A DNA stretch of 64,000 nucleotides from NCBI GenBank assembly GCA_951799445.1, contig OX637292.1:16371296-16435295 (forward strand), given 5' to 3'. This DNA comes from Pseudisothecium myosuroides. Its lineage: Eukaryota; Streptophyta; Bryopsida; Hypnales; Lembophyllaceae. Of the stretch, positions 6,176 to 57,989 are shown in pieces. Numbering within the stretch: position 1 is the stretch's first letter; every line of letters starts with the position of its first letter. Below the pieces are notes generated by a model. It did not search any database and was not told where the DNA came from. It saw only the letters and a program-made list of their open reading frames with translations. The position numbers and the translations under genes were made by a program.

Positions 6176-8690
6176 TTACAAGCCATGTATTTTGAGTAAT
6201 TTAATTTGTTCTTGCACGAGCTCAACAACAAGATCCTTGTCAATCTCTTGGAGAAATGCATCGAACTCTTCACGCAGGTCATGAATTTTACCGAATTCAA
6301 GAAGATAGCGTAAGCATTCACGCTTCAGATGCTTGAGCTGATAGAGCCATCCGTCCTGCAGTCTGGCTAGAACATTACTGCCATCAATGTCATCCACTAA
6401 GCTTACTTCACACGCCTCCTTCAGGTCACCGATGTCGTATTTGTGCGCGGCTCGCACAAGAGCAATCCTATGCTTTCGAAAATCTTCGTACTTCAAATTA
6501 CCGTACAAATAGCTGAGGAGCGCACGACAAGACTCAAGGGACATGTCATTAATATGGACTGTGGCTGATTGCTTCTCACTTAAGTTGTGAGAGAACATGG
6601 AATCGAAGACAGGTGATCGTGCCGCAAGAATAGCTCGGTGAGCCCCTACGCTGCCACATGCTGTAAAGATTGTCACATCAGTGTGAATTCCTTCCTCGAG
6701 CATTCTGCTGAGACACCTGGATAAGCCAAGCTGGGCTTGTGATTGTATGTATTCTTCACTTGTCCAGATTGAGTGTGGCTCGCCACCCTGCACATCATGC
6801 CACCCGTTTTAGCTAGAATGATAACATCCAGAAATCGTACCTTCACAAAAAATCATAAAGTAGCACGGTAGTTGTATATTCACAGGGGCATTATTTAACG
6901 TCAAGCTTTGTGTATTACTAGTGAAGACATTTGCATACGGAGAAGGATACAATTCGAGAATTATACGTTAATTCTGAGCTGCGAGAAATATGTTCAAGGT
7001 ACTAGATTACTATTGTGGATGTATTAGAACTTGAACAAACTTAGGATTCTGGAGGGCAAAAATGAAGATTAAGTCTGGGATACAGAGTTCTCACAGGCGA
7101 AGATGCAACTTTCAAATCGTGGAATTCAACTTCAACAAGGAATTTTCCATATGCCACGGAGTAGTCTAATGGCCATACAAAATCATCAGAGCAGCTTCGG
7201 AGCAACTTGTCACTCACTGGTCAACAGCCCACATAACACGCACAGAATTTAGCTTTACAATCCAGGGGTGGTTAACTTTGAGAACCCTTGTGCCGACTGG
7301 AAAGTGTAAACTGGTGAAGATATTATGCTTCAGTTGTAGCGACGAAGGTATGGAGACACAATTGGAGACAAAGAGAAAGTCCAGTACCTGTCAAATCTTT
7401 GGATGCCACTGGTTGGCCATCACATCCCCGAACCAGAATACGAACCGTAAAACTGGCAATTGGTGACTGCTCCTTACGACAATGCTCTGGGTATAGGCGC
7501 ACAGTCAGGGATGCCTTTTTCTCGATGAATATATGCCTGCAAAAAGAGTCTACTCGTAAGCACAGGAGTTTTGACCACAAAATTCAATATCCATCGTCCT
7601 GAGCAATGCACACCCTAAAGTGAAAAACAATTCCCAATTTTTCAGCTAGTATAAACGTTTTCAAAGCGAATTGTGCATTAACCAATGTCAAGATGCTTAA
7701 GTAACTGTGAGTTTATAACATAGAAGTTCAGCAATAGAGGAAAACCTTCAGTTCCTGCCATAGCACATTCGCACTCAATGTCAAACAAACTATATCCACT
7801 TTCTATACTCCGATGCGACGTCTTTAATCCAGCATATTGCGTTAACTGCAGCATATCAGATCTCGTCTGCTCCACCCCCGGTGCAACATCACCCTAAGAA
7901 TCCAATCACTAGAATGTAATTTCGATGCATACGCTTCTTGCTCTATAAATTCTTTAGAAACGAGGTCGACTGACCAAAGCCAAACCTCAGAGAAACGCAT
8001 GAGACAAGAAAACAGATGCATTAAGGATACAAAAACGGGCATCGACAATAAGATCATTCCGAAGGAAGAAACTCAACACAAACTTCGGAAGTATTTATGG
8101 ACCTGAAATGCAGGATATAGCCAACACAACAGAGAATTCGGATTTTGGTAAGCTGATGGACAGTCAACGCCCACTGATATCACAAAGTTGTCCGAACTCC
8201 TACAGTGTACACTGCTAAAGGCAAAGTATTCACCCATAAGCACTATTATAAGAGACCATGCATCAGCTATGACTAATTTCGTAATTTCATTATGAGAGAG
8301 CAGAATGCAGAGAGTGCGCGATTAATTTCTGGACCAATTTCTTCCAGAGTTGCGGCACACAAATGCCACAGGGTTGTCAAGTGCAAATTTATCACTTCAG
8401 CCAAGGTGACATAAGGCGCTCAGTCGTAAGTGGCGAGTTTCAGTTCTAGAGAGACGTGGAATGAAAAGGAGAACAATAAGGCAAGACTGAATCCGACACA
8501 TGGACGAACAAGTATGCAAACCCTAAACCAGAATTTTATGAGTATTCGAACGAGAGGCAATTGAATCATACCAGTTCCAAAGACCAATTTTGAACGGGTC
8601 AGATCGACGAGAACAGCCACTTCCCAGGCTATCCACGCGCAATTGCGCAAGCCTTGTAGTTGTCTCCACTCTGGAAATACACTCGGCCAT
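6176..8690 (-). CDS. BTB/POZ domain protein, At1g21780-like, four exons
   Basis: Exons 8572-8690, 7388-7536, 7095-7216 and 6176-6787 join in frame into 333 residues, close to the 326 of Arabidopsis At1g21780. All three introns are GT-AG. The N-terminal ~130 residues carry the family signatures SDPFKIGLWNW and the segment DDFVWPLDYSV...GKFLVEVEFHDLK. The BTB domain is at about residues 165-265, with EEGIHTDVTI, GAHRAILAARSPVFDSMF and a YLYG motif; a helical tail follows. Family knowledge: such proteins act as substrate adaptors that bind CUL3 in ubiquitin ligases. I chose the ATG at 8690 because MAEC...TTRLAQLRVDSL aligns with the family start; an in-frame ATG lies six codons upstream. No frameshift or internal stop is seen, so the gene looks intact. 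The UTRs are not defined here. A ~290-bp tandem array lies just upstream. Confidence 0.93.
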
Positions 8691-8928: not shown

Positions 8929-10615
8929 GAAATCGTACAGCACCTCGATCATTTCAGAAACATATTTCCATCTCAAGAGGTTCACCTCCTAAGCAAAAAG
9001 AACTCGAAGGAGTACGCTACTCCTTTACGCCATCAGTTGAACTCACCATGGCTACCTCTACTTTCGCGTGCAGTGAACGTACTCGTTCCAGAAAAGGAAA
9101 TTTGTCTCTTTCGCTAAAGGTCAAGCATTAATTCTCCATCAACGTTACATATACCTCAGAAGTAAATGCCGCCTAATGAAGAACATGAATCAAGTCCTTG
9201 AAAAATGCATTACAATTTTTGAAATCGTACAGCTATCCTTCCATATCCAGAATCTCGTACCTCCACCTCTCAAGTAATTAAATTTCTAAGCGAAAATCTT
9301 ACCCCGAGGAATTACGCTACTGCTCTACGTCATCAGTTGAATTCGCCATGACGACCTCTACTTTCTCGTTCAGGGAATATACTCATTCAACAAAAGCACT
9401 ATTATCTCTTACGCTATACAGGCGAAGTAATCATTCTCTATCCACATAACAAGCAAAATTCCGCTTAGTTAAGAACATCAAACAGTTCTTGAAAAATGCA
9501 TTCAAAAAAATTTAGAAATTCGTACAGCAACTCTGCCATATCTAGAACCAATGCATCTCCACCATACAAAACAAGGTTCACCTCCTAGCTAAGAAAGAAA
9601 TACCTCGCTACAACTGGACGCCATCAGTTGAATTCGCCATGGCGACCTCTACTTTCTCGTCCAGTGAATATACCCGTTCAAGAAAAAGCACTATTCGCTC
9701 TTACGCTATACAGGTGAATAAATCATTCTCTATCACATAACAAGTTCTAGGAATCAAAATTCCGCCTAGTTAAGAACGTCAAACAGTTCTTGAAAAATGC
9801 ATTCAAAAATTTAGAAATTCGTACCATACACGGTTCACCTCCTAAGAAAGAAATACCTCGCTACAACTGTACGCCATCAGTTGAATTCGCCATGGCGACC
9901 TCTACTTTCTCGTCCACTGAATATACTCGTTCAAGAAAAAGCACTATATATTCGCTCTTTCGCCAGAGGTCAATCACTTATCCTCCAAACACAGCTCCGA
10001 AGAGGAATGACGCAGAATTAAGAACATCAAGCAGTTTCTTGAAAAATGCATTCAAAAATTTAGAAATTCGTACAGCAACTCTGCAATATCTAGAACCAAT
10101 GCATCTCCACCATACAAGGTTCACCTCCTAGTTAAGAAAGAAATACCTCGCTACAACTGTACACCATCAGTTGAATTCGCCATGGCGACCTCTACTTTCT
10201 CGTCCACTGAATATACTCGTTCAAGAAAAAGCACTATATATTCGCTCTTTCGCCAGAGGTCAATCACTTATCCTCCAAACACAGCTCCGAAGAGGAATGA
10301 CGCAGAATTAAGAACATCAAGCAGTTTCTTGAAAAATGCATTCAAAAATTTAGAAATTCGTACAGCAACTCTGCAATATCTAGAACCAATGCATCTCCAC
10401 CATACAAGGTTCACCTCCTAGTTAAGAAAGAAATACCTCGCTACAACTGTACACCATCAGTTGAATTCGCCATGGCGACCTCTACTTTCTCGTCCGGCCA
10501 GTGAATATACTCGTTCAAGAAAAAGCAGTATATATTATTCGCTCTTTCGCCAGAGGTCAATCATTTATCCTCCACACACAGCTCCGTCTGAAGAGGAATG
10601 ACGCCGAATTAGGAA
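8929..10615. repeat. Tandem array of ~290-bp units upstream of the BTB gene
   Basis: Six copies of the landmark CCATGGCGACCTCTACTTTC and variants lie at about 9049, 9348, 9638, 9891, 10180 and 10472, so units are 253-299 bp. The units at 9891-10179 and 10180-10468 are almost identical, implying a recent duplication. These two carry an open frame of 79 codons starting MATSTFSSTEYTRSRKST; older units have lost it. I recognise no protein in it. The array sits 240 bp beyond the BTB start codon, so it occupies that gene's likely promoter or 5' leader side. Confidence 0.85.
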
Positions 10616-11992: not shown

Positions 11993-12014
11993 CCAATTTA
12001 ACTAATTCTGGACT
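11993..12014 (+). repeat. Left terminal inverted repeat of the large element
   Basis: CCAATTTAACTAATTCTGG followed by ACT. It agrees with the inverted right end (27193-27214) at 19 of 22 positions and with the solo end at 57968-57989 at 21 of 22. Outward of it, AACCCC (left) and AAACCC (right, inverted) may extend the repeat by a few bases. Confidence 0.65.
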
Positions 12015-12374
12015 TTGGGACCAATTATGAACAAAACCAGGTAGTTAATGTCCCCTCCGACAACCAAAAAACAACAAAACAAGTGTCAAGTATCGACGGC
12101 CAGCCAACATATTTAGCAAATTGATATTGGAATCAGACCAAACATTTCAGAAAGTGACTTGGCAAGCAATAATTTCACACCCAATTGCATAATACACAAG
12201 TCGTAACAGCTCGCCAATACAACTGCAGACATAGAATTTCGTGGCTAAAAATAATACAATCGATTAATTATTTTCATAAGTGAAATGTACAAACCAGAGC
12301 CACTATCGATGCCCTACGTACATGAAGTTCTGAAGATCAAAGTATCGGATGGCATCCGACAACGGAACTTACTG

Positions 12375-12429
12375 AATCCTAAATCCTAATCCTAAAACCC
12401 TGAATCCTAAACCCCTAAACCCTAAACCT
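12375..12429 (+). repeat. Degenerate telomere-type tract (CCCTAAA-like)
   Basis: A run of CCTAAA, CCCTAAA and CCCCTAAA units with spacing errors, just inside the left end of the large element. CCCTAAA is the usual plant telomere repeat. It may be a captured interstitial telomere tract or a promoter telo-box cluster. Confidence 0.6.
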
Positions 12430-12581
12430 TCAAAACCCCAAAAGGCCATCGGCATATCGGCCGCTGGCCAATAACTAATCCGTCGACAGAGAAGTAGTTG
12501 CTAGCAGACAACTACTTCATGCTTCCTCGGTATGACACTACATGTCTGGTAATAGTTGGTACCGAGACACAGTCAACTAAG

Positions 12582-12721
12582 GTATCGGCAGGTAGCCGAC
12601 ATACAAGAAATGTATCGGCCGGTATCCGATACACAAGTAATGTATCGGCCGGTAGCCGACACACACGTAATATATTGGCTGCTGGCCGATACACGTGATA
12701 TATCGGCTGGCGGACGACAAC
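12582..12721. repeat. Palindrome cluster, about five units at 30-bp spacing
   Basis: Units begin at 12582, 12612, 12642 and 12672 with the next at ~12702, each carrying a variant of TATCGGCCGGTAGCCGACA. They lie just downstream of the stop codon of the DUF7869-type gene. Single further copies lie at ~12089 and ~12449. Confidence 0.85.
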
Positions 12722-12739
12722 CACTGCTTACTTGCCGGC

Positions 12740-15700
12740 TTAATCTTCTCCACCGTCATCAATATCTGGATCGACCATGGCGCCAGCAGCTTCCAAGTTT
12801 TCCAAAACTGCAGTAACTGAAGGTTCAGGAATTAAATGAGTCCATGGAGGTCCTTTCTTTGCCTGAGAAGGCATTCGGTGGGAGAACAAGACAATCTTTA
12901 CATAGACCATTTGGGGAAGGTTTTGTTCCTTCTGCCATCTACGGGTCCAACACTCCCTTGCAACGACGGCCTTGCTCTCCTTCTTGCCTCTCATTGGTGT
13001 CCACCATTCCACCTTGAATTTCCCATAAGTTGGGCCTGGGGTTAGGTCAACACATTCCAGCACTCGTCCAAGCCAAACTGGAAGGTAACTGCGTCCATAG
13101 GGTCGACAAAGAACAAAGTCCCCAAGCAATACGTCTCTATACGGATTGAAGCATAGCTTTGGTTTGTCCTTAGCAGGACCACAATATGGAATGGGTTCCG
13201 CTTCATCCTCCAGTGTGATGTCTTCCGGATTATGAGGATCTAGTCCATTATCAGCAAAGACTGGAACATGATCTTCTTTCCAATCTGAGAGTGGCCAGAA
13301 TCCCTCTTGAAGTTCTGAAGGTGTAGTAGGCAGTGGAGAATGAATCTCTGCAAGGATTCGCGCCCAGTACGCCACAACTCCGGCCATTTCTTCAGCGTAC
13401 CTTCTGTTTCGTGCCATTCCAGACTTCCAGTGTTCGATATACTTGGCAATTCCATGTTTGATGAAGCTCTGTTTCTCAATACATTCACCAACCCTTGCCA
13501 CTTCCTTCTCGACGTTCAACTTCTTTGCATTGACCTCAACGTTTCCCCACAAGGCCTTAAAAGGAACTGGCTTAGGTACGCCATTTGGAATCTTGGGCTT
13601 GCCTTCAGCATCTGCCCTCCACATCTTCACCGGATTTCCTGGAGGTAGCCATGATGAATCAGTTGCTCGCTTCTTATATCTCATGGCCGGCCATCCTTGA
13701 TCTGGACCGTCCTCTTCAACGTAAAATTTGAAGAGATGCTTATCCCCCAATCCGATAATTTTGTTGACTCCATCGTGGTGAAAGTCCTTGACATATGATT
13801 TGAAATCAGCAACCTCTTGGACAAACTTTGGAGTGAAGGCCACTGTCTTCTGAGAGTCCATGAACGCCTTCATGAGATCAGCAAGGACGTAGGTGTTCTT
13901 CCTCTTAATTAGTTTAGATAAGTAACTGAAGTGCGCGTCTATATCCTCGTGGGTATGACCCATAATGAGAAAGCCAACTGTCACTTCCTTAAAGATTCGT
14001 CTTGCAGTTAGTAATGAACAAAAGGCCATAACAAATTTTGTTCTTGTTGTCCTTCGCTGAGTTATCAAGCTGCAAATAGAGCTTCTTCGAAAGCGGAATA
14101 CTTGGTCCTCCAGGTCGAGGAAGGGGTCTAGTGACTTCTATGGTCGATACGTTAGTTGCATGTCGGCTGCTAGCCGATACATTAGTACAGGCCTCTGTGG
14201 CCAACGGTATGGAAGATGTGCATCTCGATTTCCCGTGGAGTAAAGCCTCGAAGAAATCGTTCTGAGGTGGAGTTGTAAATAACTATTTGGACTCACAAAC
14301 AGGCGGCTTTTCCAAAGCACGCAAAACACGACACAACGAGGAAATGGTAAAATTTGAGTCCCCCGGCCAAAGTGAAGTCGCGTAATGTGCATACGCTCCA
14401 TCACCATGACCGTGGGTAAGCATGCCAGTACAAGATATAGGAATCTGCCCGAGACCACAGGTTGCCTTGGTGATTCTCTACATTCGAGGGATAGCTGTCT
14501 TGGTCGTGTCCATCTTGTCATGAATAATACAGAGGAACTCAAATGGATTCTGAACAGACTACGCACTCCAGCCACCATAGATATTGCGGCAAGCTCTCTG
14601 GTAATTGAGGTGGCGATTTCTGTCCTCCACTAGTGATTGCCACTCGTCACATCCTCTGGGATATTTTGCGATAATCTCCACAAGAAAGTCACACTCGGTG
14701 CATTTCGAGAAATTACTGCCCACAGCCTTTACCTCCACATTCTTGAAATGCGATTTTCGAAGCCGACTAATTGCAGATTGCGACACAGATTTCAGGTTGC
14801 ATTTTTCATTAACCTGTTCAAAACAATGAAATGGAAGCATAAGAACTGGAAATCCAAAATCCATCAGCTTACAACTTACATATGTATTGGCTGGTAGCCG
14901 ACACAAGCCTTTCAGTATCAGCTTACAATTTACATACATATCGGCTGGCAGCTGACACAAGCCGACACAAGCAGTCTATCAGCTACCAACCGACACAAGT
15001 AATCTATCGGCTACCAACCGACATAAGGAGGCTATCATGTGCCAGCCAACACAAGTAGTCTATCATGCACCATTTGACAAAAGTAGTCTATCGGCTACCA
15101 GCCGACATAAGTCTATCAGGTAGCAATACAACAAAGAAGAAAAGATATATCATCAGATATCTCATAGAAATGGATTGAAGATTCTTACGTAATTGACTTC
15201 ATCCCGCATGTGATCCCAATTCATGGCTGACGGAAGAACCATCAAATTGTCCACACATTTATGACCAATGACTCTAAACTCATTTGGCATCTTATCACAA
15301 TTCTCGCTGATGATTGTTGTTAGAGTTGCTTGGGCTTCAACTGTTTGTGGACGTGGTCGACGAGTCCCGGCGTTTCCGTGCGTCCCACTAATGCAACCTT
15401 CGAGTGCAGTGATCTTGTAGAGGTAATAAGCTGACCTTGAAACTCCATGAATAATGTACCATGCATTCTCGCATACGTCACGGTTAGCAACGGTAATGTA
15501 TTTCCTGCCAGGACGAGCACCCGCATGTAGTTCACTTTGAACACTGTAAGCCGTTTCTCTCCTCTGCTCAAAAGTGCTTGCGTAGTACCTGCGGCGGAGA
15601 TTCTTTGTGGCTTCCCAAGGAAAATGTTGACAACAGCTTTCTTTGCAGCACTTCTGAGAATTGACCTTTCGAACTTCTACCTCCGATGTCTTCTTCTTTA

Positions 15701-17177
15701 ACTTGAATTTGCACATGCGATCTCTAGGAAGAACTCTACAATGGACCGATCCGTAGGCATTCTTCGGAACCCCAGCGATGCCTCCATCATCTGAGTCCTC
15801 TAACTCCGTAGCCTCAGAACATAGGGTGACAATTTCTGAGAGGAGTCGACCATCTTCTAATCTTGCGTGTGTTAATCTCCAACGCATGGTTGTCATCTGG
15901 AGTGTCTCATGCTCCGACACAAATTATAAACCCACGTCTGTGTCACCAAGGACATCCTCGTCGCATGCTTCGTCCGGGAGGCAGACCTGGATCATCCCGA
16001 TTCCAAATAGGGATAAATCATCACTAAGTAGTTCACAATACTTGTTTCTCCACAGTGGCCGGTCCGGCCAAGGAAGGCCAGGTCCAAATCCTGTACTGTT
16101 GCTCTTGCCACTTTGAACAGCACCTGAAGGAGTACCACCATCGCCTTCAACAACGAATTTTGTGCGACCTTCAATGCTACCAACCGGTGGAGGTCTAACA
16201 TCACGAGCATCAACGCTGACGGTACAATTATCATTAATGTTTGGCATTTGATCACCAAAATCCACGTCCTCATCTTCCGAACAGTAAACCCGATCAATTC
16301 GGTCGTCTTCATCAGAAGCATAGGCAAAGTTGTCTTGGGGTCTGCCTTCTTGAGCCCCAACCTGGACATCGCTTGAGCTCTCGCTGCTAGCAAGATGCTC
16401 ACCGTCGGCTGTGTCACTGGACTTCTTCTCTTCGGGTTCCAGTTTGATCTGCTTCAGTGTCGGCAGTGTCGGCTGTCGGCCGATAGAATGAGCACAAGAG
16501 ATAGCAGAATCTAGGGGTCTCACTTTGTACCCACTCCAGAGGATTAGGTATCCAATACATTGTCTTAGGGTTGTGAAATGCGGAATTTGATAGTATGCGA
16601 TATGATCTAAGAAATCGTGATTGACCTTCTGCAATTTCACAACGACAAAGAAACTGTGTGGGATCTGGAAGCCTTCCCATAATCCTTTCGGGGAGCACTC
16701 AACTATCTCACCGATTCCCACACATCGGAGGTTTGGACCGTCACCATGCAAGAGAGCAACGTCCATGCTGACAGTAAGAGTAAGGAACTCTTGAATCGGC
16801 TTTTCGTCAAGAAGAACCTCTGACGGCTGTCGATAGACATCTGAAGCATTCGTCTTCTCCAATTCCACATATGGTCTAACATATCGTTCTTCCCAAATGA
16901 TGGTCCGACCCTTGCACTGACGAAGTTGCTTTAAGTCACCCTCAGGGAAGGGAATGCACATATCGATATTTTGTGCTGCATCAAGCACTCGCACATACAG
17001 AAGACCAGGCTCCCTAGAGGCCACTTTCTCAATTACTGCTCGTCCTGCGTAGTAGAGGCCATCCAATGTGAGAGCCACCTCCACGCCCTTCCTCAAAGTC
17101 CACCTTCCAGAGCTCCCATTCTTTGTAAAAGATGTGATTGGTTCGGTATCCAATACCATGTCCAGTGGTCTTTTCAT
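12740..17177 (-). pseudogene. DUF7869-type transposase-like gene, interrupted
   Basis: Two exons are inferred: 15189-17177 and 12740-14813, joined in phase over a GT-AG intron full of palindromes. The composite is ~1350 codons. The first ~240 residues hold two similar blocks (VALTLDG...ILWEERYVRPY and VALLHGDG...LILWSGYKVRP) that resemble the DUF8039-like modules of plant transposon proteins; this is tentative. An acidic linker follows, then a Cys-rich region (CCKESCCQHF, ENAWYIIHGVS, GTHGNAG). The second exon has CIIHDKMDTTKTA, HGHGDGAYAHYA, LQLDNSAKDNKNK, FVMAFCSLL and MGHTHEDIDAHFSYLSKL, the signature order of DUF7869 proteins, probably RNase H-like. The C-terminus has a GDFVLCRP...PVWLGRV module. 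Breaks: in-frame stops at 15924 (TAA), 14559, 14478 and 14283 (all TAG) and a one-base frameshift at about 14036-14039 that separates DNKNK from FVMAFC. The start at 17177 is the first ATG; upstream exons are possible. Confidence 0.75.
14881..15131. repeat. Palindrome cluster within the intron of the DUF7869-type gene
   Basis: About eight degenerate copies at roughly 28-30 bp spacing, such as CTATCGGCTACCAACCGACA. They occupy most of the 375-nt intron (14814-15188). Confidence 0.8.
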
Positions 17178-17237
17178 CTCTTGGTCGCTACAGGATTTCT
17201 AGTGCAGGTAATGACTCCGGTCCAACACTAGACGGGA

Positions 17238-17438
17238 TCGTATCGGCTGGCGGCCGACACAGAGAATGAAACCTATCAAATGGTGGCCAACCCAGGAGGT
17301 GTATTATATTGGCTTGCGGCCAAAACAAAGAGGCTATGTTCTATCGGCTGGCGGCCGACACAGGAGGTTGTTTCTATCGGATGGCGGCCGACATAGGAGG
17401 TTTGTTCTATCGGCTGGCGGCCGACACAGGAGGTTTGT
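17238..17438. repeat. Palindrome cluster at the 5' side of the left gene, 33-bp units
   Basis: About six copies; the last three (17340-17438) are nearly exact 33-bp repeats containing TATCGGCTGGCGGCCGACA. The period here differs from the 30 bp used elsewhere in the element. The position, just upstream of the first ATG of the minus-strand gene, suits a regulatory role. Confidence 0.85.
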
Positions 17439-18779
17439 CTGTTGCCTTGTACGGATCAGTAAAAAGTAAATCTTAAAAGTAGAAAAGTATAATTTAAAGT
17501 AGAAAAGTAGAAAAGTATATCCAAATTTCTATAGTTTAGAGGTTGCATGAAATGAAGCAACGACAGAGTCGATCAGAAGTTGCACGATGTGAAGCAACGA
17601 GAGAGAAGATCAGAAGTTGCACGAAATGAAGCAACAACAGAGAAGATCAGAAGTTGCACGAAATGAAGCAACATGTTGGAAGCACAGAGAAGCACAACAT
17701 GAAATTTATTAACTGAAAACTTCAAACCATGTCCACAACACACTTGCGCTCTTCCTGATCTGAAAGCGTACCTAAGTCCTTCCTGAGCTCTCAAGCTCTA
17801 TCTCAAATTTCCTTAGTCCGGAACCACTAAACAGAGTAGCGTTTGAATCGATGTACAAATAAATCAGAACAGAAGTCATGGGACGCTAATCCTGAGCATG
17901 ACGCCTCACAGAACACTCCTTCAAGCGCTTATCTCTCTCTCAATTTCACAACGCAGAACTCTTAACAGTTATCACTCATTGTTGCAACCTAAAGCACTCT
18001 TGAACGTGATCCTAGAGCCTTGCAAATTCCCTTGAAACGTGATCCTCAGCCTCACAGAATCACTCGCAAAACTCACACTCGCAAAACTCACTCGCTCCAG
18101 AATCACTCGCAAAACTCACTCACACACTCGCAAAAGTCACAGTGCTCCAGCCTCACAAAATCACTCGCAATCCTGAGCTCCAAGAATCGCGTCAACAAGA
18201 GAAGAGAAAATGATCTCAAACTAGAAGAGACTGGCTGTCTTCCCCCAAATTTGGGCGGCGGTCCGAATTTGAATTAGAAATGATAACAAGTAGTGGGGAT
18301 TTTCAAATTCAAAATGCAGTTACGAGAGGTAGTGGGCCGAGATTTTGAATTCAGTCACCAATTGCGATAGGTAGTGGGGAATCATCTCGCCAAATTCACA
18401 AAAAAGGACACTCATTGCGAGGGTCTGTACAATTCCATTTCGGCCGCTTGAATGAATAATGGAAGGTTTTCATTAAAAATTGAACTGGATGGATGAACAA
18501 TCAAGTGGATGAATGAAAAATCAACCGCGAGTGGATGGAAAAACTTGAGTACTGAGCTTGATTTGATGGCTGGAGGGAGGGGGGTATACTCCCCAGAGCT
18601 GCATGCTCACAACCTCATTTTTCTTTTCTCTCCTGGCAGCTCTCATCTCTCTCCTTCCTCTCCTCTCTCTCTCCTTCTTCTCCTCTCTCCCTCGACTCTT
18701 CCCATGTGAGCTCTGGAGGCGGTACGTGAGCTATGGAGTTGCAGTCGATACAATTAGGGTTGTAGTTACAATTAGGGAA
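17439..18779. promoter_or_regulatory. Central divergent zone between left and right genes
   Basis: No coding is recognised. It contains three ~39-bp direct repeats around AGAAGTTGCACGAAATGAAG (17573-17672), a run of ACTCGCAAAACTCAC repeats (18056-18170), three ~60-bp units around GGTAGTGGG (18287-18380) and a CT-rich tract (18632-18705) like plant 5' leaders. Its place between divergent genes suggests a bidirectional promoter region. That is an inference; no specific TATA box was fixed. Confidence 0.4.
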
Positions 18780-19030
18780 TGCATCAGCCAATACATTAGT
18801 ATGCATCAACCAATAGAAAGTTAGTTCATCCGCCGATAGAAATGCACCAGCCGATACACTAGTGGGCATCAGCCGATACAGTTCTCTTTGATCTGCCGAT
18901 AGAAATGCATCAGCCGATACACTAGTGGGCATCAGCCGATACATTTCTTGTTCATCCGCGGACACTTGGGCATCAGCCGATACTGAAGCGACATCAATTG
19001 ATACAATTGTCGGTTGCCCGCCGATACTGG
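18780..19030. repeat. Cluster of half-palindromes (CATCAGCCGATACA)
   Basis: About ten copies of the half-motif CAGCCGATA or CCGCCGATAG, without the matching left half, at the start side of the right-hand gene. Confidence 0.75.
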
Positions 19031-19360
19031 AGCGCATGGAGACCCCACTGGAGCGAGGAGACGATACTGGAGCGAGGAGACGATACTGGAGCAAGAGCAG
19101 ACGATACTAGACCGACAGTGGAACGAGCAATGGAGAGTGAAGGCAGCCAGGAACAAAGGTACGTCTCAAATTCCAACTTCGACCTTACATTTCTGTAGAC
19201 ATTCATTCACCGCACAATACATTAGTTGTATATCAGATGCTAGCCGATACAGTAGTTGTGGACCCTATAGCCGCCCTAAACACTAGATTGCTAGCCAACA
19301 ATGTAGTTGTAAACCCTAAAGCCGCCTATAAGAATTATTGCGTATCGGCTGCATTGTTCC

Positions 19361-20140
19361 GTATTGGCTGGCAACCAATACAATATTTATGCGCGGGCTG
19401 CTTGCCATAACGTTAGTTCCGTATTGGCTGGCAGCCGATACATTATTTATGCGCGGGCTGCTTGCCATAACGTTAGTTCCGTATCAGCTGGCAGCCGATA
19501 CATTAGTAGCGTATCGGTTGACAGCCAATACATTATTCTTGAGCGGGCTGCTTGCCATAACGTTAGTTCCGTATCGGTTGGCAGCCGATACATTATTTAT
19601 GCGCGGGCTGCTTGCCATAACGTTAGTTCCGTATCGGCTGGCAGCCGATACATTAGTAGCGTATCGGTTGACAGCCAATACATTATTCTTGAGCGGACCG
19701 CTGGCCATAACATTAGTTCCGTAACGGCTGGCAGCCAATACATTAGTAAAATAAAGGCTGACAACGGATACATTGTTCTTGAGCGGGCTGCTTGCAATAG
19801 CGTTAGTTCTGTATCGGCTGCCAGCCGATACATCAGGGTCGCATTCTCTGATAGCCGATTCAGTAGTTGCATATTGGTTGGCAGCCGATACATTGTTCTT
19901 GAGCGGGCTGCTTGCCATAGCGTTAGTTCTCTATCGACTGCCAACCGATACATCAGGGTCTCATTCTCTGATAGCCGGTACACTAGTTGCATATCGGCGG
20001 GCAGCCGATACATTAGTAGCGTATCGGCTACTAACCGATATCCTAGATGTGTATCAGCTGTCGACCAATCTGGTTGTAGTGTGTTAGCTGGAGTAGTTCG
20101 TTTTACAGGTGGTGGCCGATCCAATTTTTGTTCATTGGCT
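19361..20140. repeat. 30-bp tandem array of palindrome units, 26 units in exact register
   Basis: Every unit from 19361 to 20140 is exactly 30 bp with no insertion or deletion, although units differ by many substitutions. Two main types alternate: GTATCGGCTGGCAGCCGATA plus a 10-bp tail, and the diverged GCGCGGGCTGCTTGCCATAA plus a tail. Because 30 bp is ten codons, several frames stay open across it (for example 259 codons on the plus strand repeating SVSAGSRYI); I do not regard these as genes. It lies inside the inferred first intron (19159-20192) of the ParB-like gene. Looser copies precede it from ~19228. Confidence 0.9.
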
Positions 20141-21045
20141 TAGTCGTCTCATTATTGTTTAGGGCTCTGATGCTATTTCTATTTCCTTCAAGAAGCCACC
20201 AGTTCTGGCGAAACTACTTGGCGAGCGAGTCAACAACTCACCTGTTACTTGTGGCGGGATTCGTCCGCGCGCTTCCTGGAATGGGAACCCCCAGATTCAA
20301 GATTGGGGACTTACCTAGAGAGAAGGTTCGGACAAGCGCGTTGAAATCACTTGCACTTTTGTCATGAAAGGCACTATCATGCCCGGCTACGAAAGTGTCC
20401 TAAATGTCATTGGGGGAGGATGTCCACATCTTAATATGTGTCCCTCCTATTGGCGATAAGGAGGGTGAGCCGGACTATGTCGCAGTTGCCTTGCCATGGA
20501 TTAAATGCAGTGATGAAGTTTGCGGTGATGCGGCTAGAACACAAGGCATGATTTTTGAAGGCGCACGTCCTAAACATGCAAAAGAGGTAGTCGAGTCATG
20601 GGGTACCCTGAGCACCGGGCGAGACATTAGGAACAAATTTCTTGATGATCTAGCCGCCAAGGGAAAGAAGAAAGTGCCGAAGCCGCAGAAGAAGATGGAT
20701 AACGCTGAAGCTTCTCAGGCGATTGTCGAGGCAGAGGAAACCCCAACTCAGTGGAAGTCGAAAGGCAAATCCAATGCGATGAAGATGACGTTGGACGAGG
20801 CCTTGTTCAAGGCAAACAAACTTACTACAAAGACCAAGGAATCTGAGGTCGAGGCAATTTATAATGCTTTGGAGTATGGACTATCAGGTGCATTTCCATA
20901 CAAGAAAGAACAAATCCCAAGAAAGATCCATTCAGACAGACTGCACATTGCGCCAAAGGAGTTGAAGTGTAGGACGGTTTCGCATGACCGACTTGTTCAG
21001 GTATGTCTTGAGGTCTAATCTGAAATCTTCACTTCATTTATCCGA

Positions 21046-21776
21046 TGTCGGCTGCTAGCCGATACGATTGATCTGTTTTGTTGCCTGCCAGCAAATACAC
21101 TTATTGAAAATTCCTGATCAAGTTTTATTGCTTCCTTCTAGGTTAAGCAGACCTTGATGGGATATGGATCGATAAAAAAGAAACCGGAAATTTATGCCAT
21201 TCCCTTGAAGCGAGCTCCAACACTCGAGGACAAAGGTCTTGACGCGGTAATGGCTTCTATACCGAAAGAGGAGGATACCGTTTTATTAGAATCTAGAGAA
21301 AAAGTTTCGTGGTGGCAGGCTCCTAATGTTCACTGGTACATTATTGGAGGCCAGCATACGGTGATGGCATGCCGCGAGTTGGCGGCACAACATCCTACCC
21401 GGAAAGATCTGCTGGAGTTTGAGGTCATTCCCGTGTTTAGTGATAAGACAGAGATTCTTGTTTGTGTCTCCAATGCTTTAAATTTGAATCTAGATGAGAA
21501 GGTTGCAAAAGAGAACTTTCGATCATGCGTTGAGCTAGGAAGAGCTGCTTGGGAGAAAGCTGGGTTCCCGCAGCCTCATAAAGGTGGTGGCAAACCGTCA
21601 ACAGCGTTTGAGGTAGTATTCCTCCTTCTTTGTGCGATCACCCTATCAATGGACTAGATTGTGTATGTTTGGTTTGTTGTTGTTAGGATGTCGGCTGTCG
21701 GCCGATACGTTCTCCTTTGGTCTAGGCTGCTGGCGGATAGACTTTGCTCGGGCCTGTGTCGGTTGCCAGCCGATAG
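21046..21776. repeat. Palindromes inside introns 2 and 3 of the ParB-like gene
   Basis: One copy at ~21046-21064 in the first of these introns, then copies at ~21690-21706 and ~21756-21776 in the next. Further copies at ~23235 and ~23270 lie in the intron 23199-23376. Each intron of this gene thus carries at least one. Confidence 0.8.
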
Positions 21777-23541
21777 ACTGACGTGCTTCCCGTGGTCTAA
21801 TTTCTGTCTCTTTTATTGACACAGACTGCAAAAGCAAATGTCATGGCGCACTTTGTAGAGGACAAAGCCTCCAGTAAGCTTCCGCTTCTCTTTGTGAACG
21901 ACGCAACATGGAAAATTTGGAGTGAGGTTTTTGACCAGTGGAAGGCAGGTTAGCTCATATCTGAAGACGGGAATATCAGGCCCCCGAAAGAGGGTGTGTT
22001 CACCAAGCCCATCATGCACATTACAAAGTCAGAAGTGACCACAACTCTGGGTTTGCGGGACTCTGACCTTCAGGAACTAGCCCGAGAGATTCTTGCCAAG
22101 AGAGTGAGCATAAAAAATACAGCAAAAGTACGGGCCGTTGGATGCTTAACATTGCTAGAATGGTGCAAGGATAAGAAACTTGATTGGGTCATCATGAATG
22201 AACTCATGTGGCTCAAGAACCAGCACCCTCTACCATGCAAGGACACCCACTGGATTCCTTACACCGATGAGGCTTGGCAGATACTGGCTGATCAGCGTGG
22301 CTACTTTCCTGCAATCATCCGCAACATTTGGAAGGAGCTCAAGAAGGACACGGAGAGCGCCAAGTGGTTGGACGGACGCGTTTCGGCGATGAGTCCGACT
22401 ACGGATAAGTCACCTAATGGCAAGGCTCCTGCGGGTTTTTTCACTGCTTTGAGCAAGTTCACGGTGCCCGAACTTCCGCCCGTGGCAACTCCCGCAGCGA
22501 CGCCCGGTTTGGTCCCAACACTAAACGTTATTGAGTACAAATGTCGGCACGCTGAATCATTGCCTGACGTATTTGAGTCATTGAAGACGGGTTCCAAGAT
22601 GTTTCCACTTCCGAATGGTTCTCCGAAATTGTTTGTGTTATTTGCGTACACGACTGCCGGTGAAGCTGTGTCAGTTTCGAGGAAGGATATTCAGGAACTT
22701 GCTTTGTTGGCTGAGCATGTTGTCCCTGGCATGGAAGTTCCTTTTATTGAGGATGGTAGCGATGATGAGAGCAGCAGGCCACCGCCGATTCCACTTCCTA
22801 TGTTTTTCATTGCAAACTCTCGGGTCCGAGATAACATCGTCTCCGCCTCGAATAGATCGGATTCCACTTGGACTGTACACACCATGTACTACCAACCTGG
22901 GGTTCGGTGTGGCTTCAAGAGCTCAGGTATTGACGCGAAGCCTTTAGTGACCATATCAATCTCCTATCCTTATCCACAGGATTATCCTAACGTGTTTCCT
23001 AAGTTCAAGAAGTTTACCGAAATTCAGAAACCCTTGGATCCGATCCATTTTCCCATCGATGGTGAAGTCGATTGGAACCATGAAATGTGCGGAGTCAGCC
23101 ATGGTGTACTCGAGCGGATTCTGAGGCCGAGTATGAAGGCTTGCTCAGCAACTATTATAAACATTTGGGGTGGTGGAAATATTACAGAGATAGCTCTGGT
23201 ATGCCGTCTTACCATTATTGTATCTCCCTTATCTGCTGTTGGCCGATAGAATTCGAATTGATCATCTCGTGTCGACTACCAGCCGATACATTCATTAATT
23301 ACTTTCTTGTTCTTGTGTCAAAGGCTGGCAGATAGAATTATTACTGACTGTTTATTGATTTTATGTTTTTGTGTAGCAAATTGGGAGACCTGTATTGGAG
23401 TTTGTGCGTGAAGTGGACCATGTTACTGTTGCTCGAAATCGCGTCAAGGGATTAAACCTTACTATCAGTTCCGACATCTTGGCGGCACCCAACCTCCCCT
23501 CCAATGTTGAACCTACAGTCCCTCCTACATCCAAGTCGCAG

Positions 23542-23715
23542 CCCCAGGACCCTGTCCGGTCGCATGTCCCTGCCCCTCGTGGTGTATCGGCTGGTAGCCG
23601 ACACGGAGAGGAACCTAGAAGCTTGCAGCCCCAGGACCCTGGCAGCCCACATGTCCCTGCCCCTCGTGGTGTATCGGCTGGTAGCCGACACGGAGAGGAA
23701 CCTGGCAGCTCTAAG
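23542..23715 (+). repeat. 87-bp in-frame coding repeat, two copies, each with a palindrome
   Basis: Two units (from 23542 and from 23629) encode PQDP...HVPAPRGVSAGSRHGEEP. The nucleotides GTATCGGCTGGTAGCCGACA supply the residues VSAGSRH, so the palindrome is carried within an exon of the ParB-like gene. The repeat length of 29 codons keeps the frame. Confidence 0.85.
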
Positions 23716-24661
23716 AGAGCCTTCTTTGACTTGACTACCACTACGCGAAAGAACCGGAAATCCTTGAGCCCTGGGACTGTGGTCATTAATCTCGAAGATG
23801 ACCATGATGGTTTCCCAGACAGTACAACCTTGATTGAGAAAGCCGTGAGCCTTGTGAATGTACCCATTCATCGTGATGCACGGTTTGATGGACTTCCAAT
23901 GACGCCGGGAAGAGGTAAGGACTTTGACAAGTCTACTTCCATGGAGAATCCCGATTCAGAGGTGGATACCGTAAATCCTACATCCCCTTCCAATTTGGAG
24001 GTTGAAAATACTTCCCCTTCCAAATCGGTCATACAGACTTCCCCTCCCCGAATTCTGCCTCTTGACATTTTACAGCCGGTTGCATCTAGCGCCGGGCATA
24101 TAGCGCCGCTTTATATCCCCCTTCAGGTTCCACCTACTTCAGAGGTGGTAACCAGATTGGCGGAAGGGCATCAGTCCATGAAAGGACCTGACCGTGGTCC
24201 GGTGGAGGAACCTCGAGAGGCAATGACTTGTGATGGGGAAGAGCAGGACCTTATCAGCGACCAGCCGATAGATTCAACTACGGGCCCTCTGAAGCGTCGT
24301 AGAGGTAGGGATAAAGGCAGTGCTGTAGAATCTTCGGGCTCTTTCGACTCTGTTCGCTCTACTCGCTCAAAGTCAGCAAGGGGTCGGCAAAGGCATAGTC
24401 GCGACAAACTTGTGGAAAGTGGAGGTCCAGGCGTGGTTCCGGACTCGGATTTGCCTAATGAGCGGCTGTCGCCGATACCTTCTAAGCGTCAACGCACTTC
24501 TGGAGGTCGGTCCTAGGCAATGGAAATTGTAGTATTTGGTAGTGAGGTCGTCGCAGAAATCTTGTCTGCTAGAATACTTGTAGTTCTGTTGATCGTTGCA
24601 ACTTGTAGCACTCTAGCGTAGTTCATTCTTATATTGTATCGGCTGCCAGCTGATACGTGTT

Positions 24662-25591
24662 ATGTGTCGGCTGCTAGCCGATATCCCTTATTATAAATTG
24701 TACACTTCTATTATTTTCATCATCTTGCCTGATCATGATGTGGGACCTGCAAAGTTGTGCCTAACCAAGTCAGGACGTAGTACTGGTAGCGGGGACAGTT
24801 CGCCATCGGGGGCTGACGAGGACGATGGTGTCGCTCAGCCACTGGGAAAGGAAGATGGTGCTTTGCCCCATTCAGGGCACCAGGTAGCGCCTCAAAAATA
24901 TTTCCTAATACTGGACATCAATGGGACGGTCTTGTACTTTGAGCCTCTTCTAATGAAAAACAACAAGGTTATTCGGAGGGGTTGCACGCGAAATAGACCG
25001 GGTCTGGAAGCCTTCTTGAAATTCTGTCTTGCGCAGGGATTTGAGATTGTTTTTTGGTCCAGTGTCACTGAGAAAAATCTAGAGACCCGCTTCAAAAGCA
25101 TCTAGGAACTTGTTCCTAAGCTCAAAAACTGTCGTCGATTTTCACAAACCATGTGTGACACAAGCGCTTATATTGACCCCAAAAACCCCAGTCAACAGTG
25201 GTTCCTGAAGCATTTATCACGGTTGCTTACGTCTCCAAAAGGCTTGCTTGGTACACATGCAACTCTAGATAATTGCCTTCTTGTTGATGATTCGCCCTAC
25301 AAGAATATTTTGAATGACCCCTATTCTGCATTTCACCCTCCTACCTGTACAAAGTATTCGGAGCAGAAGGTGAGTCCTGGCAAGACATATCTGGAGAAGG
25401 TCATGATTCCGTTCCTTGAAGGATTGCTGGTATCTGGGCTCTCAGTTCCAGAGTATTGTAAGTCAAAAAAAGAACTTGGTAGCCCTCGTTGCTTTCCGGG
25501 TTCTATTGAGTACAATAAGTATATTGAGCTTACTCCCGAATCTCGAGCCGGATTTGAGGATCCAGACATTGAGATGGAGATAGGGGAGTAG
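24662..25591 (+). pseudogene. FCP1/SCP-type (NLI-interacting factor-like) phosphatase-like gene, one internal stop
   Basis: The frame encodes a HAD-fold FCP1 homology domain. The nucleophile segment is YFLILDINGTVLYFE, followed by RRGCTRNRPGLEAFLKFC, FEIVFWSSVTEKNLE, and after the break NCLLVDDSPYKN, the motif IV acidic pair. Family enzymes remove phosphate from serine residues, for example on the RNA polymerase II tail, using DxDx(T/V). Here the second Asp is Asn (DINGT), a form also seen in plant relatives with LDxNG, so catalysis is doubtful. A TAG at 25103 interrupts an otherwise continuous frame (FKSI then ELVPKL). The start is uncertain: the only ATG in frame (24662) lies inside a palindrome copy, and an upstream exon may exist. 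It follows the ParB-like gene in the same direction. Confidence 0.7.
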
Positions 25592-25832
25592 GATCTCCTG
25601 AACTAAATATCCTCTTACAAGAGGAAACTTAGCGTGTTGGCCGCCAGCCGATACACTTTTTTCGAAATTTTGTCTTGTAATTAGCTACAGTACATATATT
25701 GTAATTAGCTGATGGAGATAGAGGAATGGAATCTCGCAAAGTAAACATCCTCTGAACAGAAGACGCTTAGCATGTCGGCCGCTAGCCGATACATTTATTT
25801 AGAATTTTCATTGTACATGTCTTGTAATGAGC
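25573..25832 (+). repeat. Duplicated ~117-bp block at the 3' end of the first FCP1-like gene
   Basis: 25573-25687 and 25714-25832 align along their length: GAGATAGGGGAGTAGGATCT against GAGATAGAGGAATGGAATCT, then matching palindrome and TCTTGTAATTAGCT/TCTTGTAATGAGCT. The block spans the final codons, the stop and the 3' flank. Substitutions show that it is an old duplication. Confidence 0.7.
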
Positions 25833-26162
25833 TAGTACTCACGGATTTTGGACCCCTACTTACTGGATAATTGTATAAATTTGGGGGCTTTATTTTTGGT
25901 ACACGAAGTATTGTAGATTCAATCCACTGATTGTCTTTTTCAATGATGTATGTTTTGGCCTTTCTTTGAGATGTACTCAATAATATGCATTTGCATCTAT
26001 CCTTGAATGTCATTTACATCTTAATTTCATAGAATGAAAAATATTTTTGTTGCTAGTTTGCCATAGCATTTCACTTGTCGGCCGCCGGTCGATACCAGTA
26101 TCAGCGTTTTAATTCGTTCTAATGTATCTCTTATTTGGAGGGCTTTGCGATTTGTTGTTCAG

Positions 26163-26810
26163 GGATCCACCAGCGGTCCAGGACATCCCGTCAAGAAATG
26201 TGTGGTTCTTTGTGTTACGGGATTGCTTTGTTATGTCGACCTACATATCTCTACGGATCGATGGAATCCGCATCGAAACATTGTGAAGCGTCCCAGGCTT
26301 AAACAGTTGTTTGAGGTGTTGTTGCGTCGATTCCATGTGGGTATATGGTCAAAGATGCCCATGCACGAATTGGGTCCTCTACTATCACACCTACTCCCAG
26401 AGAATATCATTCCCAGGTTGTCATTCATTTTTGGGCGAGAATATTGTCTCGATAAGGAAAAATTTCCTTGGTGCTACAAGGTGCTTTCTACGCTTTTTTC
26501 AAAGCGGCGGTCTAGGGAGGTTTGTGTGGAGGATCAGGTCCTCATGGTCGATGTTAGCCCACTTTCGCTTCGTAGGACCCCAAATCATGCTTGCTACCTT
26601 CCTTCTCCATTTGTCGGAGAACTTAGGCGCACAAATAACAGAAGTGTTATTCCTAACGTGTGTGTTGATATACTTCCGTTCATTGATCCTTTAGCCGACT
26701 GTAACTCTGTTTCAGATTATTTGAAGTCCGCTCAAAGGCCTGGCCAGTTTCATTATGAGGTGGCTCAATCCATTTTCTATGGACGGCCTGATTGGCATGG
26801 CCTTTTCTGA
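26163..26810 (+). CDS. Divergent FCP1-like protein, second tandem copy, catalytic Asp residues lost
   Basis: An acceptor TTGTTGTTCAG precedes the frame at 26163, which runs 215 codons to a TGA. Order of motifs matches an FCP1 domain: KKCVVLCVTGLLCYVDL at the nucleophile position, RRFHVGIWSKMPMHELG, and DQVLMVDVSPLSLRR at motif IV. Both aspartates of DxDx(T/V) are missing (CVTG), so phosphatase activity is not expected; it may be a binding-only relative. The first exon or start is not found. It shares direction and spacing with the upstream FCP1-like gene, and similarity of layout suggests an ancient tandem duplication. No internal stop is seen, unlike its neighbours. Confidence 0.6.
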   Translation, partial: GSTSGPGHPVKKCVVLCVTGLLCYVDLHISTDRWNPHRNIVKRPRLKQLFEVLLRRFHVGIWSKMPMHELGPLLSHLLPENIIPRLSFIFGREYCLDKEKFPWCYKVLSTLFSKRRSREVCVEDQVLMVDVSPLSLRRTPNHACYLPSPFVGELRRTNNRSVIPNVCVDILPFIDPLADCNSVSDYLKSAQRPGQFHYEVAQSIFYGRPDWHGLF

Positions 26811-27192
26811 TCCGTAGTTCTTTGGAAATGTATCGGCTACCATTCGACACGCAGGCTGCCACTCTGAAGTTTGCTGATACTGAATCTGTAACTCAGTAGT
26901 TATTTAGTTCAGAATCTGTAATTTTGTAGTTTGATAGATTAGATCTGTAGTTCCGTAGTTTGGTAGTGAAGATCCGTACTTGTGTAGTTTGGTAATTAGT
27001 GCTGTAGCAATTTTTTTCGGCTAACAACCGACATATCTCCATCGGCTTATGCCTTATCTTTAATGAAATGCACAAGCTTGCGTTACTTTGTATCATCCAT
27101 ATATTCGTCTTTCTCCTCCACGAGTTTATATTATTCTTAACTGAAAAATGTGATGTCGGCCACTAGCCTATTTTAATTTTGGACTGGAAAAT

Positions 27193-27214
27193 AGTTCATA
27201 ATTTGTTAAATTGG
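27193..27214 (-). repeat. Right terminal inverted repeat of the large element
   Basis: AGTTCATAATTTGTTAAATT followed by GG; its reverse complement begins CCAATTTAACAAATTATG. The preceding ~20 bp (TTTTGGACTGGAAAATAG) also match the solo end at 57.9 kb. Confidence 0.65.
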
Positions 27215-33752: not shown

Positions 33753-36700
33753 TCACAAGGCGAGGGGACCTGCGTCATTAGTCATAGATTGCACCATCAA
33801 AGCAGGGCGAGCGCTGAAACTGGTGGCCTTTCCATAGAGTTGAGCATTTCCAGATGCTCCTGATTTGGTAAAGAAAGCTCCGTTGAGGAACAAATCACCA
33901 GAAGATCTCCAGTTCCAATTGTCCTCGTTTTTGTTTCCTCCATCATCAATGCGCTTCGTCACCTGAAGAAGAGACACTCACTTCCCTCAGAAACTTGAGA
34001 ATCGAATTTCGAAAGTGAAGCAGCTGTCTATTTAGATTGAAAAGACAACTTCAGCCTCTGATGTCACAGAAACAGGTGGGCTCGGATTCAATGTGAGATA
34101 TCAACAAGCAAGGCACCACGTACGAATATGCCCCTTATTCCGAACTGTGAGTCCGCCCAACTTCACTGGTTTTGTCGTCGGGTAGCAAAAACCAGCCAAG
34201 TTGAGTGGACTCACTGCGGGAATGCGACACGTTTTAGACTAATTAAAAACGATTGATCGCAGAAAGGAGAGTTCGAGCAAAAAATCCACCTCTTTCTTGA
34301 ATCTGGCGTTGGGAGCAAAGAAGCGATTCCCCTCACTGTTTATGATTGGATTTTCACTTCCTCCAATAGCATACATTTCCCAGCCTTGGTAGTTGTTGTT
34401 CACAATGTGGAATGTTCCTTGCCGGCACCTTCAGAGACAGAAACATCACTGCATAAATATTCATGTATTTACAAAATGTAAAGCATTGGCTTCTCAAGAA
34501 GAGGAAACTGGGAAATCAAAGATCAACACGGGAAGACACATTGCATTTACCTTGGCATGCGCTCAATTAGATTTGCTCCAAAGTGATTGAAGGCGACGGT
34601 GACTCTCATACCCTTGTCTATGGTGTCCTTTGGATGAGCGCCAAGTAACATCACCTGGGGCAGACAAGTAATGAGGCAGACGAATCAAAACTTGGCACAG
34701 AGGTAATCATCGCAATGAACACTTTCCTCATCTCTCCGAGTTGTATGCAACCAAAGTAACCCTTAGTGATATGGCGACCCTCATATTTACAATTAATTAG
34801 GAACACCATTAAAACATCATAATCTCAATGACGCATAATCTAAACATGGCAGGCAGCCATTCAAGAACCTTCAAGAAGAGGAGCCGCATTGTAATTCATA
34901 GACACTCTCCTTTTTCCACACGCAATTTTGAGACAGTTTTCCAAGATTTTCTTGCTGCACCATTTTCTTTCATCCAGAATCATAACACACACACTGAGAT
35001 TATAAAGGTAACTGACATCTGGAGCCCAATTGTTAGAAAAAGTACAACTTGGCATGTACCGTTTCCACAATTTTGCTCTACACTTGAGAACAAGCATTTG
35101 AAGGACACCCGAATTTGAACATTTTTAGAAGATCATACCTTGTCATGGTTCTCAAAGTAGTTGTTGGAGATGGTGACATCAGTAGATCCTTGAATGACAT
35201 CGACGAGGCCATCAGCGCAGCTAGAAAAATAGCAGTGGTCCACCCAGATGTCGTGAGACCCAAAGATGTTAATAGCATCTCCATCGGATTTACCTCTGCT
35301 TCCGTAATGGGTGGGAGAGCTCCTTACTTTGGCAGGCCCGGTGGACTTACAGTCGTGAATGTGAATGTTGTGAATGATGATGTTATTCACATACTGAACT
35401 GTAAGACACGCCCCTCCGGCGATGTGAACATTGTGACCACGGCCGTCGAGAGTCTTGTAACTGTTCATGATGAGCTCCTCCTTGAGCTTTATGTTCATGT
35501 TGCGGCTAAACACAATCCAGAGAGGCTCGGACTGAATGACGCCATAGCGAAGTGTCCCTTCTCTGGGATTAACCACGTCGTTGTCGCTGTCATCGGTGAC
35601 AACGTAGATTTCTCCGTTTTTACCACCGACGGCGTTCTTGCCAAAGCCAAGGGCGCATTCTGCGAGTTGTTGCCGATCCTTCGCCCAGTTGTAATTGCAC
35701 CTCCAACAGTCATCGACGGGATTGCCGGTTCCGCAACCTCCAAGTGCTCTTCGGGTTGAATTAGAGCTTCAATTACAACAACAGACGCATAATGTCAGAC
35801 TCACACCTTGAGAACCACCGGCCGTGCAATACTACTTAGACTAACCGGGGCACATTACTCGGAAAACAAAGCAGTAAAATGCGAGGTGGTCGCTTCACCA
35901 GTAATACTCAAACAAATATAAAATAAAAGAGACACGCCAGTCACTGGAACTAACTGAACGTGCTCCCTTCCAAGCGATTCAATACACATAAATGTGTTAG
36001 CTGAATTAGGCTCATGACCACGAGAAAAATACAGCTCTGCCTTACAACTTGGAGCGGAGAAGCTTACATTCCTCCTCTGAAAGAACCAGAAACAACGCAT
36101 CTTAGATAAATGCATTCATTCCTTAGCTGTGGAGTGTAAAATGAGGCTAAAGCTTCACAGAAAAAGTCCAAACCTTTTACGAAAGCAGGCAAGAAATGAA
36201 ACAGGCAAAACAAGAAAGAGGAGTACATCACTGCATAATATCGGTATATCAGTTTCTTCCTCAGTTCTGAAAGCAATGCTTACTAACATGAACTAGAAAT
36301 CTGCAGTCTCATCTCACAAGACCTCGCGACAGCGGCACTCATCTGCTTCAGAAATAAATTTTCGCAGAAAAGTTAAACGTTAAGCGCGCATATTAAGTCA
36401 AGGCTATTGCCGCGAAAGAGACGGAACATCCATTAGTTTGCGTTCCAGATATACTCAATCCCAGGACGAATTTCAAACGAGACTACAATCTTAACTCTCA
36501 AGCTATATTTCAGACATTGTCTACAGGTTCCGAAAAACAGAGGATCGGAGAACCGCAAGAACGTACGCGATTCCTTCGCCAGCTTCTGACCAGCTATACA
36601 TAGATCAAGTTAGAAGGACATTGATCGATGCAAATTCTGCCCGTGGACACCTACCATCCTCTACTCAAGCAATGATGTTTCTGCACTAGAGTAGACAGAG

Positions 36701-57807: not shown

Positions 57808-57989
57808 GTATATTGGCTCGTAGCCAGTACTTGTTTATTTTTAGTTTTATTTGATCCAAAATGATGATTATGATCCATTTAAACTCAAAAGTGTATATTT
57901 GGACTACATTTATATCATATTTTCATCATTTACTAGCAAATGTGATATTAATTCTAAACTGGATAGTAGTCCATAATTAGTTAAATTGG
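57808..57989 (-). mobile_element. Solo right end of a relative of the large palindrome element
   Basis: A lone palindrome copy (GTATATTGGCTCGTAGCCAG) at ~57808 is followed by the end repeat at 57968-57989, which is 21 of 22 identical to the left end of the large element in inverse. The spacer between them is longer than in the large element (~27153 to 27193). No coding remains. Confidence 0.55.

Follow-up and report, generated by a model that had tools for sequence, protein, structure and literature searches.

A probable decayed giant transposon, enriched in a single palindromic word, in the moss Pseudisothecium myosuroides

We analyzed a 64,000-nucleotide stretch (64 kb; hereafter, the window) of the genome of the moss Pseudisothecium myosuroides (assembly GCA_951799445.1, contig OX637292.1, positions 16,371,296 to 16,435,295 of the forward strand), in which a large element occupies window positions 11993-27214 (~15 kb) and is organized in two divergent gene halves. 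A gene encoding a DUF7869 protein lies on the minus strand at the left, and a ParB-like gene and two NIF (FCP1-type) open reading frames (ORFs) lie on the plus strand at the right. The element is bounded by 22-bp terminal inverted repeats (TIRs), the left at 11993-12014 (plus strand) and the right at 27193-27214 (minus strand), which were located by end-pattern search and alignment and are identical to each other at 19 of 22 positions, or at 20 of 23 if the ends are shifted outward by one C. Searching the window with a 20-base end sequence, CAATTTAACTAATTATGGAC, at up to three mismatches gave four matches vs. 0.01 expected, and the inverted end repeats of ~22 bp proposed by an earlier note on this DNA are therefore borne out. 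The four matches form two inverted pairs, one at 11994/27213 (the large copy) and one at 57771/57988 (a small copy), with the ends of the small copy matching those of the large copy at 17 to 21 of 22 positions. That is, what the earlier note had described as a solo end at 57.8-58.0 kb is actually a whole, non-autonomous copy of 220 bp (57770-57989) that reads CC...GG between AAATT flanks on both sides and carries one palindrome of the type described below (at 57811, five mismatches). The flanks of this single copy represent a 5-bp target duplication if the ends are symmetric, and a 4-bp duplication (AAAT) is possible with asymmetric ends. Terminal repeats common to two copies within the window, the large one and the small one, are as expected for TIR (cut-and-paste) DNA transposons. 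The guanine-plus-cytosine (GC) fraction is 0.46 inside the element vs. 0.38 in its flanks (10 kb from each side, taken together); however, it is likewise high (0.42-0.47) at 33-38 kb and hence, GC alone cannot mark the element. We also noted telomere-like CCTAAAC repeats at 12372-12428, just within the left end.

The most distinctive feature of the element is a near-palindrome, TATCGGCTGGCAGCCGATA, a word picked from the repeats of the element itself, which occurs 48 times inside the element vs. zero times outside at up to four mismatches. At more permissive thresholds the inside/outside counts were 55/1 (up to five mismatches), 59/2 (up to six) and 69/6 (up to seven), and the sole outside site at five mismatches sits within the 220-bp small copy. 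In ten sequences of equal length generated from a first-order Markov model, the mean number of sites at up to six mismatches was 1.1 and the maximum was 3. At this last threshold, 16 of the 59 sites are found in the left part of the element, 25 between the genes, and 18 in the right part, including an array of 15 palindromes in the region between the divergent genes (19362-20070) that share a single 30-bp register, and a cluster of five upstream of the left gene (17241-17426). Dyad symmetry of the sites is 6.5 of 9 pairs vs. a background of 2.2, a value to be read with the sites having been chosen by palindrome likeness. Five of the 59 sites fall in reading frames, four of them according to approximate exon limits and one (14161) within an insertion in the DUF7869 gene (below), and two of the five are copies inside an 87-bp tandem duplication. 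Palindromes of arbitrary sequence (7-bp perfect arms) were not enriched inside the element (6 of 78 rows, with overlapping rows included), and so the enrichment belongs to one word, not to palindromes generally; the earlier claim that palindromes are confined to the interval holds for TATCGGCTGGCAGCCGATA but not for palindromes at large. Separately, three near-identical 18-bp palindromes, AATCCCAAYGGTGGGATT, which probably represent another interspersed family, are found outside the element at 1743, 31967 and 63520, and a related palindrome pair (TTGTCCC...GGGACAA) is found at 2419 and 38931.

The left gene matches DUF7869 (PF25273) in Pfam at E 4.7e-24, in agreement with the minus-strand gene of this type assigned previously, and is thus a member of a group of proteins found, e.g., in the liverwort Riccia sorocarpa. 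Its main coding part (12740-14810, minus strand) shows, relative to the related protein P0001, three in-frame stops, a frame change near 14034, and an in-frame insertion of 19 residues that holds the palindrome at 14161. An ORF at 15162-15923 (minus strand) is a probable upstream exon, the segment 15372-15674 of which aligns with the start of a R. sorocarpa DUF7869 protein (P0097, E 5e-4), and a 424-aa ORF at 15924-17198 (minus strand) is, by adjacency only, a possible first exon; the latter matched no Pfam family and seems, by eye, to contain a module in tandem duplicate. We collected 97 relatives of the DUF7869 protein; the sole one for which an organism was given comes from R. sorocarpa. 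DUF7869 was matched in all 29 relatives scanned, whereas the ten other families listed were each matched in a single member, with E-values no better than 0.036. The motifs kept among relatives are IIHDKMD, LQLDNSAKDNKN and GHTHEDID, and the acidic residues D82, D214 and D254 are present in 37 of 44, 72 of 75 and 80 of 81 rows, respectively, where rows of the 97 aligned relatives are counted if they have no gap at the position concerned. In a predicted structural model (mean predicted local distance difference test score, pLDDT, of 72), these motifs come after strands 76-81, 208-213 and 240-245, with helices at 222-234 and 251-267. The motifs may be read as a DDE core, with which the predicted strand order is compatible, and the DUF7869 protein is probably the transposase of the element. 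Pfam describes DUF7869 solely as a domain of unknown function, and no paper naming it was found in the literature library that we searched.

At the right, the ParB-like gene is modeled with four plus-strand exons, at 20404-21000 (199 codons), 21142-21612, 21825-23198 (with one in-frame stop) and 23377-24516 (with the terminal stop), which measure 597, 471, 1374 and 1140 bases (each a multiple of three), are separated by GT-AG introns, and encode 1193 residues; palindromes are present in each intron. We found 19 relatives for exon 2 and seven for exon 3. Exon 2 resembles ParB in the motif IIGGQHTVMACREL, followed by EVIPVF and NALNLN, and its hhalign comparison with seven phage proteins scored 23.6, higher than all 40 of 40 shuffles (maximum 19.3) and with a probability of 7%. 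The ParB-like gene named in the earlier note is plausible, but the likeness is weak by profile. A methyltransferase in exons 3-4, suggested by a motif I likeness seen by eye, was dropped: there was no Pfam hit, the hhalign score (16.6) was below the largest shuffle (21.5), and pairwise comparisons fell at 0.04, 0.055, 0.38 and 0.81 of shuffles for the four phage proteins with a methyltransferase part and at 0.55 to 0.91 for the remaining three of the seven. A viral or prokaryotic origin was also rejected for the DUF7869 gene (no relatives in viral contigs, genome contigs or phages) and for exon 2 (none in viral or genome contigs), as was a viral origin for exon 3 (none in viral contigs), in searches from which records near the window's genome were possibly omitted.

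Further to the right are FCP1-type ORF 1 with its same-frame continuation past a stop at 25103-25105 (24617-25591, plus strand) and ORF 2 (26067-26810, plus strand). The E-values of the two NIF matches are 4.1e-7 and 1.2e-4. With scores of 22.2 and 30.2 bits, both matches exceed the Pfam cut-off of 21.8 bits, confirming the FCP1-like genes reported before, and both are partial, covering profile positions 2-68 and 35-136 of 160. Only the first part of 24617-25591 matched NIF, with no Pfam match for the continuation ORF; we infer that the two parts are one interrupted gene. The catalytic motif of FCP1-type phosphatases is DxDx(T/V). By eye, ORF 1 reads LDINGT, in which the second Asp is missing, which makes the earlier description of these proteins as 'signalling-type' doubtful; ORF 2, whose match begins at profile position 35, could still have such a motif in an unseen first exon.

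Peptide versions of TATCGGCTGGCAGCCGATA were found in 9 of the 123 relatives, that is, in one of 97 DUF7869 relatives, two of seven exon 3 relatives and six of 19 exon 2 relatives, vs. a mean of 0.83 and a maximum of 5 in 500 residue shuffles. The proteins concerned are P0001 for the left gene, P0100 and P0101 for exon 3, and P0105, P0106, P0107, P0109, P0112 and P0113 for exon 2. The peptides fall past exon boundaries in the relatives, where palindromes can surface in proteins because unspliced gene calls can run into introns, and the P0001 peptide aligns with the window's palindrome near 14885, in a proposed intron. As read from these peptides, the word seems to have been kept with both the left and the right genes across relatives that share 44 to 71% protein identity, and its occurrence in relatives of both genes links the two halves of the element. 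The view that the element represents a single mobile family carrying its own genes is therefore well supported, by the ends common with the small copy, by the presence of TATCGGCTGGCAGCCGATA in the left, middle and right parts, and by the peptides beside both genes' relatives.

The copy itself is dead, unable to move by means of its own proteins, because these are interrupted: relative to their relatives they show four in-frame stops (three in DUF7869, one in exon 3) and a frame change, and the stop at 25103-25105 in FCP1-type ORF 1 would be a fifth. As a side observation, all five in-frame stops (within 14034-14810, 21825-23198 and 25103-25105) are TAG, possibly by chance or by methylation-linked mutation.

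Collectively, we consider it probable that 11993-27214 is a decayed giant cut-and-paste TIR transposon of a land plant, whose palindromes would be bound by its own protein. Under this hypothesis, the DUF7869 protein would act as the transposase on the inverted ends, and the palindromes, which are most closely packed in the region between the divergent genes and also occur in introns, would be bound by a protein that the element encodes. The most likely candidate is the ParB-like protein, which, once bound, may coat or mark the element for regulation or for the assembly of transposition complexes. It is important to note that several results weigh against this hypothesis. The large copy lacks a flanking target duplication, and must therefore be old, rearranged or chimeric, and no second large copy was seen in the window. 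The proposed DUF7869 core is partly of low confidence (pLDDT 55-64 at 251-270, around the last helix, and <50 at 106-136, between the first two motifs), structure searches of this protein against solved and viral structures gave no match with an E-value of 0.001 or below, transposase or integrase names were absent among the best 50 matches listed of each search, and the best 50 listed in one search were mostly on the C-terminal barrel. None of the 20 ParB-like members matched a ParB family in Pfam, and the predicted ParB-like model was poor (mean pLDDT 49.5) and gave no structural match. Finally, the TATCGGCTGGCAGCCGATA peptide was seen in just a single DUF7869 relative. A more specific version, which we regard as rather unlikely, is that a eukaryotic transposon carries its own parS-like system, with a ParB-like protein and ~50 cognate palindromes element-wide, introns included; the resulting protein coat would then constitute a private chromatin domain governing expression, pairing or transposition.

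The nearest described case that we found is Sola1-1_Ec32 of the brown alga Ectocarpus, as described in the accessible part of PMC12477816, to which our statements about this element refer. Like the moss element, it exceeds 15 kb (21.5 kb) and encodes a ParB-like protein of ~1100 residues (1104 aa) on the strand opposite to the transposase. The combination of genes, which the earlier note did not recognize from described elements, is accordingly not without precedent in its layout, a ParB-like gene opposite a transposase gene. The likeness seen is one of layout, and there are differences as well: a DNA methyltransferase domain is reported for the algal protein and was not detected in the genes of the window element by Pfam, hhalign or pairwise comparison, and palindrome arrays are not mentioned for Sola1-1_Ec32 in that part of the source. 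It is nonetheless possible, although we hold it only tentatively, that the moss element belongs to the Sola1 superfamily as a bryophyte representative, in which case DUF7869 would be the transposase of that superfamily, and the ParB-like gene, here a 1193-residue model divergent from DUF7869, would be the counterpart of the algal accessory gene. This alternative, which would refine rather than replace the transposon hypothesis, gains from the listing of Sola1 for Physcomitrella (accessible part of PMC9033089), in addition to the similar layout; besides the missing methyltransferase, it has to contend with the small-copy duplication, which with symmetric ends is one base longer than the 4 bp described for Sola2 elements (accessible part of PMC3627910). 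Kyakuja-Dileera-Zisupton (KDZ) elements are also very large DNA transposons in which accessory genes are frequent (PMC12477816, same part), but the Pfam scan of 29 of the 97 DUF7869 relatives gave no KDZ family. A literature search of titles and abstracts turned up no plant element of the DUF7869/ParB-like kind.

Two further alternatives concern the palindromes and the unity of the element. Rather than binding sites, the palindromes could be a repeat without function that multiplies inside the element, also in its coding sequence, by selfish spread or by slippage, as the sites in reading frames and the pair within the tandem duplication would suggest. However, the dyad symmetry has been kept (with the qualification given above) and peptides of the word recur beside exons of relatives at the protein divergence noted, and we consider this explanation possible but less probable. 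That two unrelated units happen to be adjacent, a transposon with the DUF7869 gene and an independent set of ParB/FCP1-type genes, is very unlikely in our view, since a single palindrome word spans both halves and flanks exons of both genes' relatives, and one TIR pair encloses everything.

Outside the element, a BTB-like ORF (6176-6808) and a pectate-lyase-like ORF (35133-35768), both recognized by eye, appear to be host genes or their remains, and a segment of an ORF is directly repeated at 9751-10421 (two copies of ~95 residues each).

Giant transposons with ParB-like accessory proteins have been described in brown, green and red algae, and a possible role in binding and marking the very transposon that encodes them has been suggested for these proteins (PMC12477816, accessible part). 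A decayed giant TIR transposon at this locus would extend such elements from algae to a land plant. Further, it adds a concrete candidate binding site, that is, one word in dozens of copies, with 30-bp phasing in one array and apparently common to relatives, which makes the idea of a self-marking transposon directly testable.
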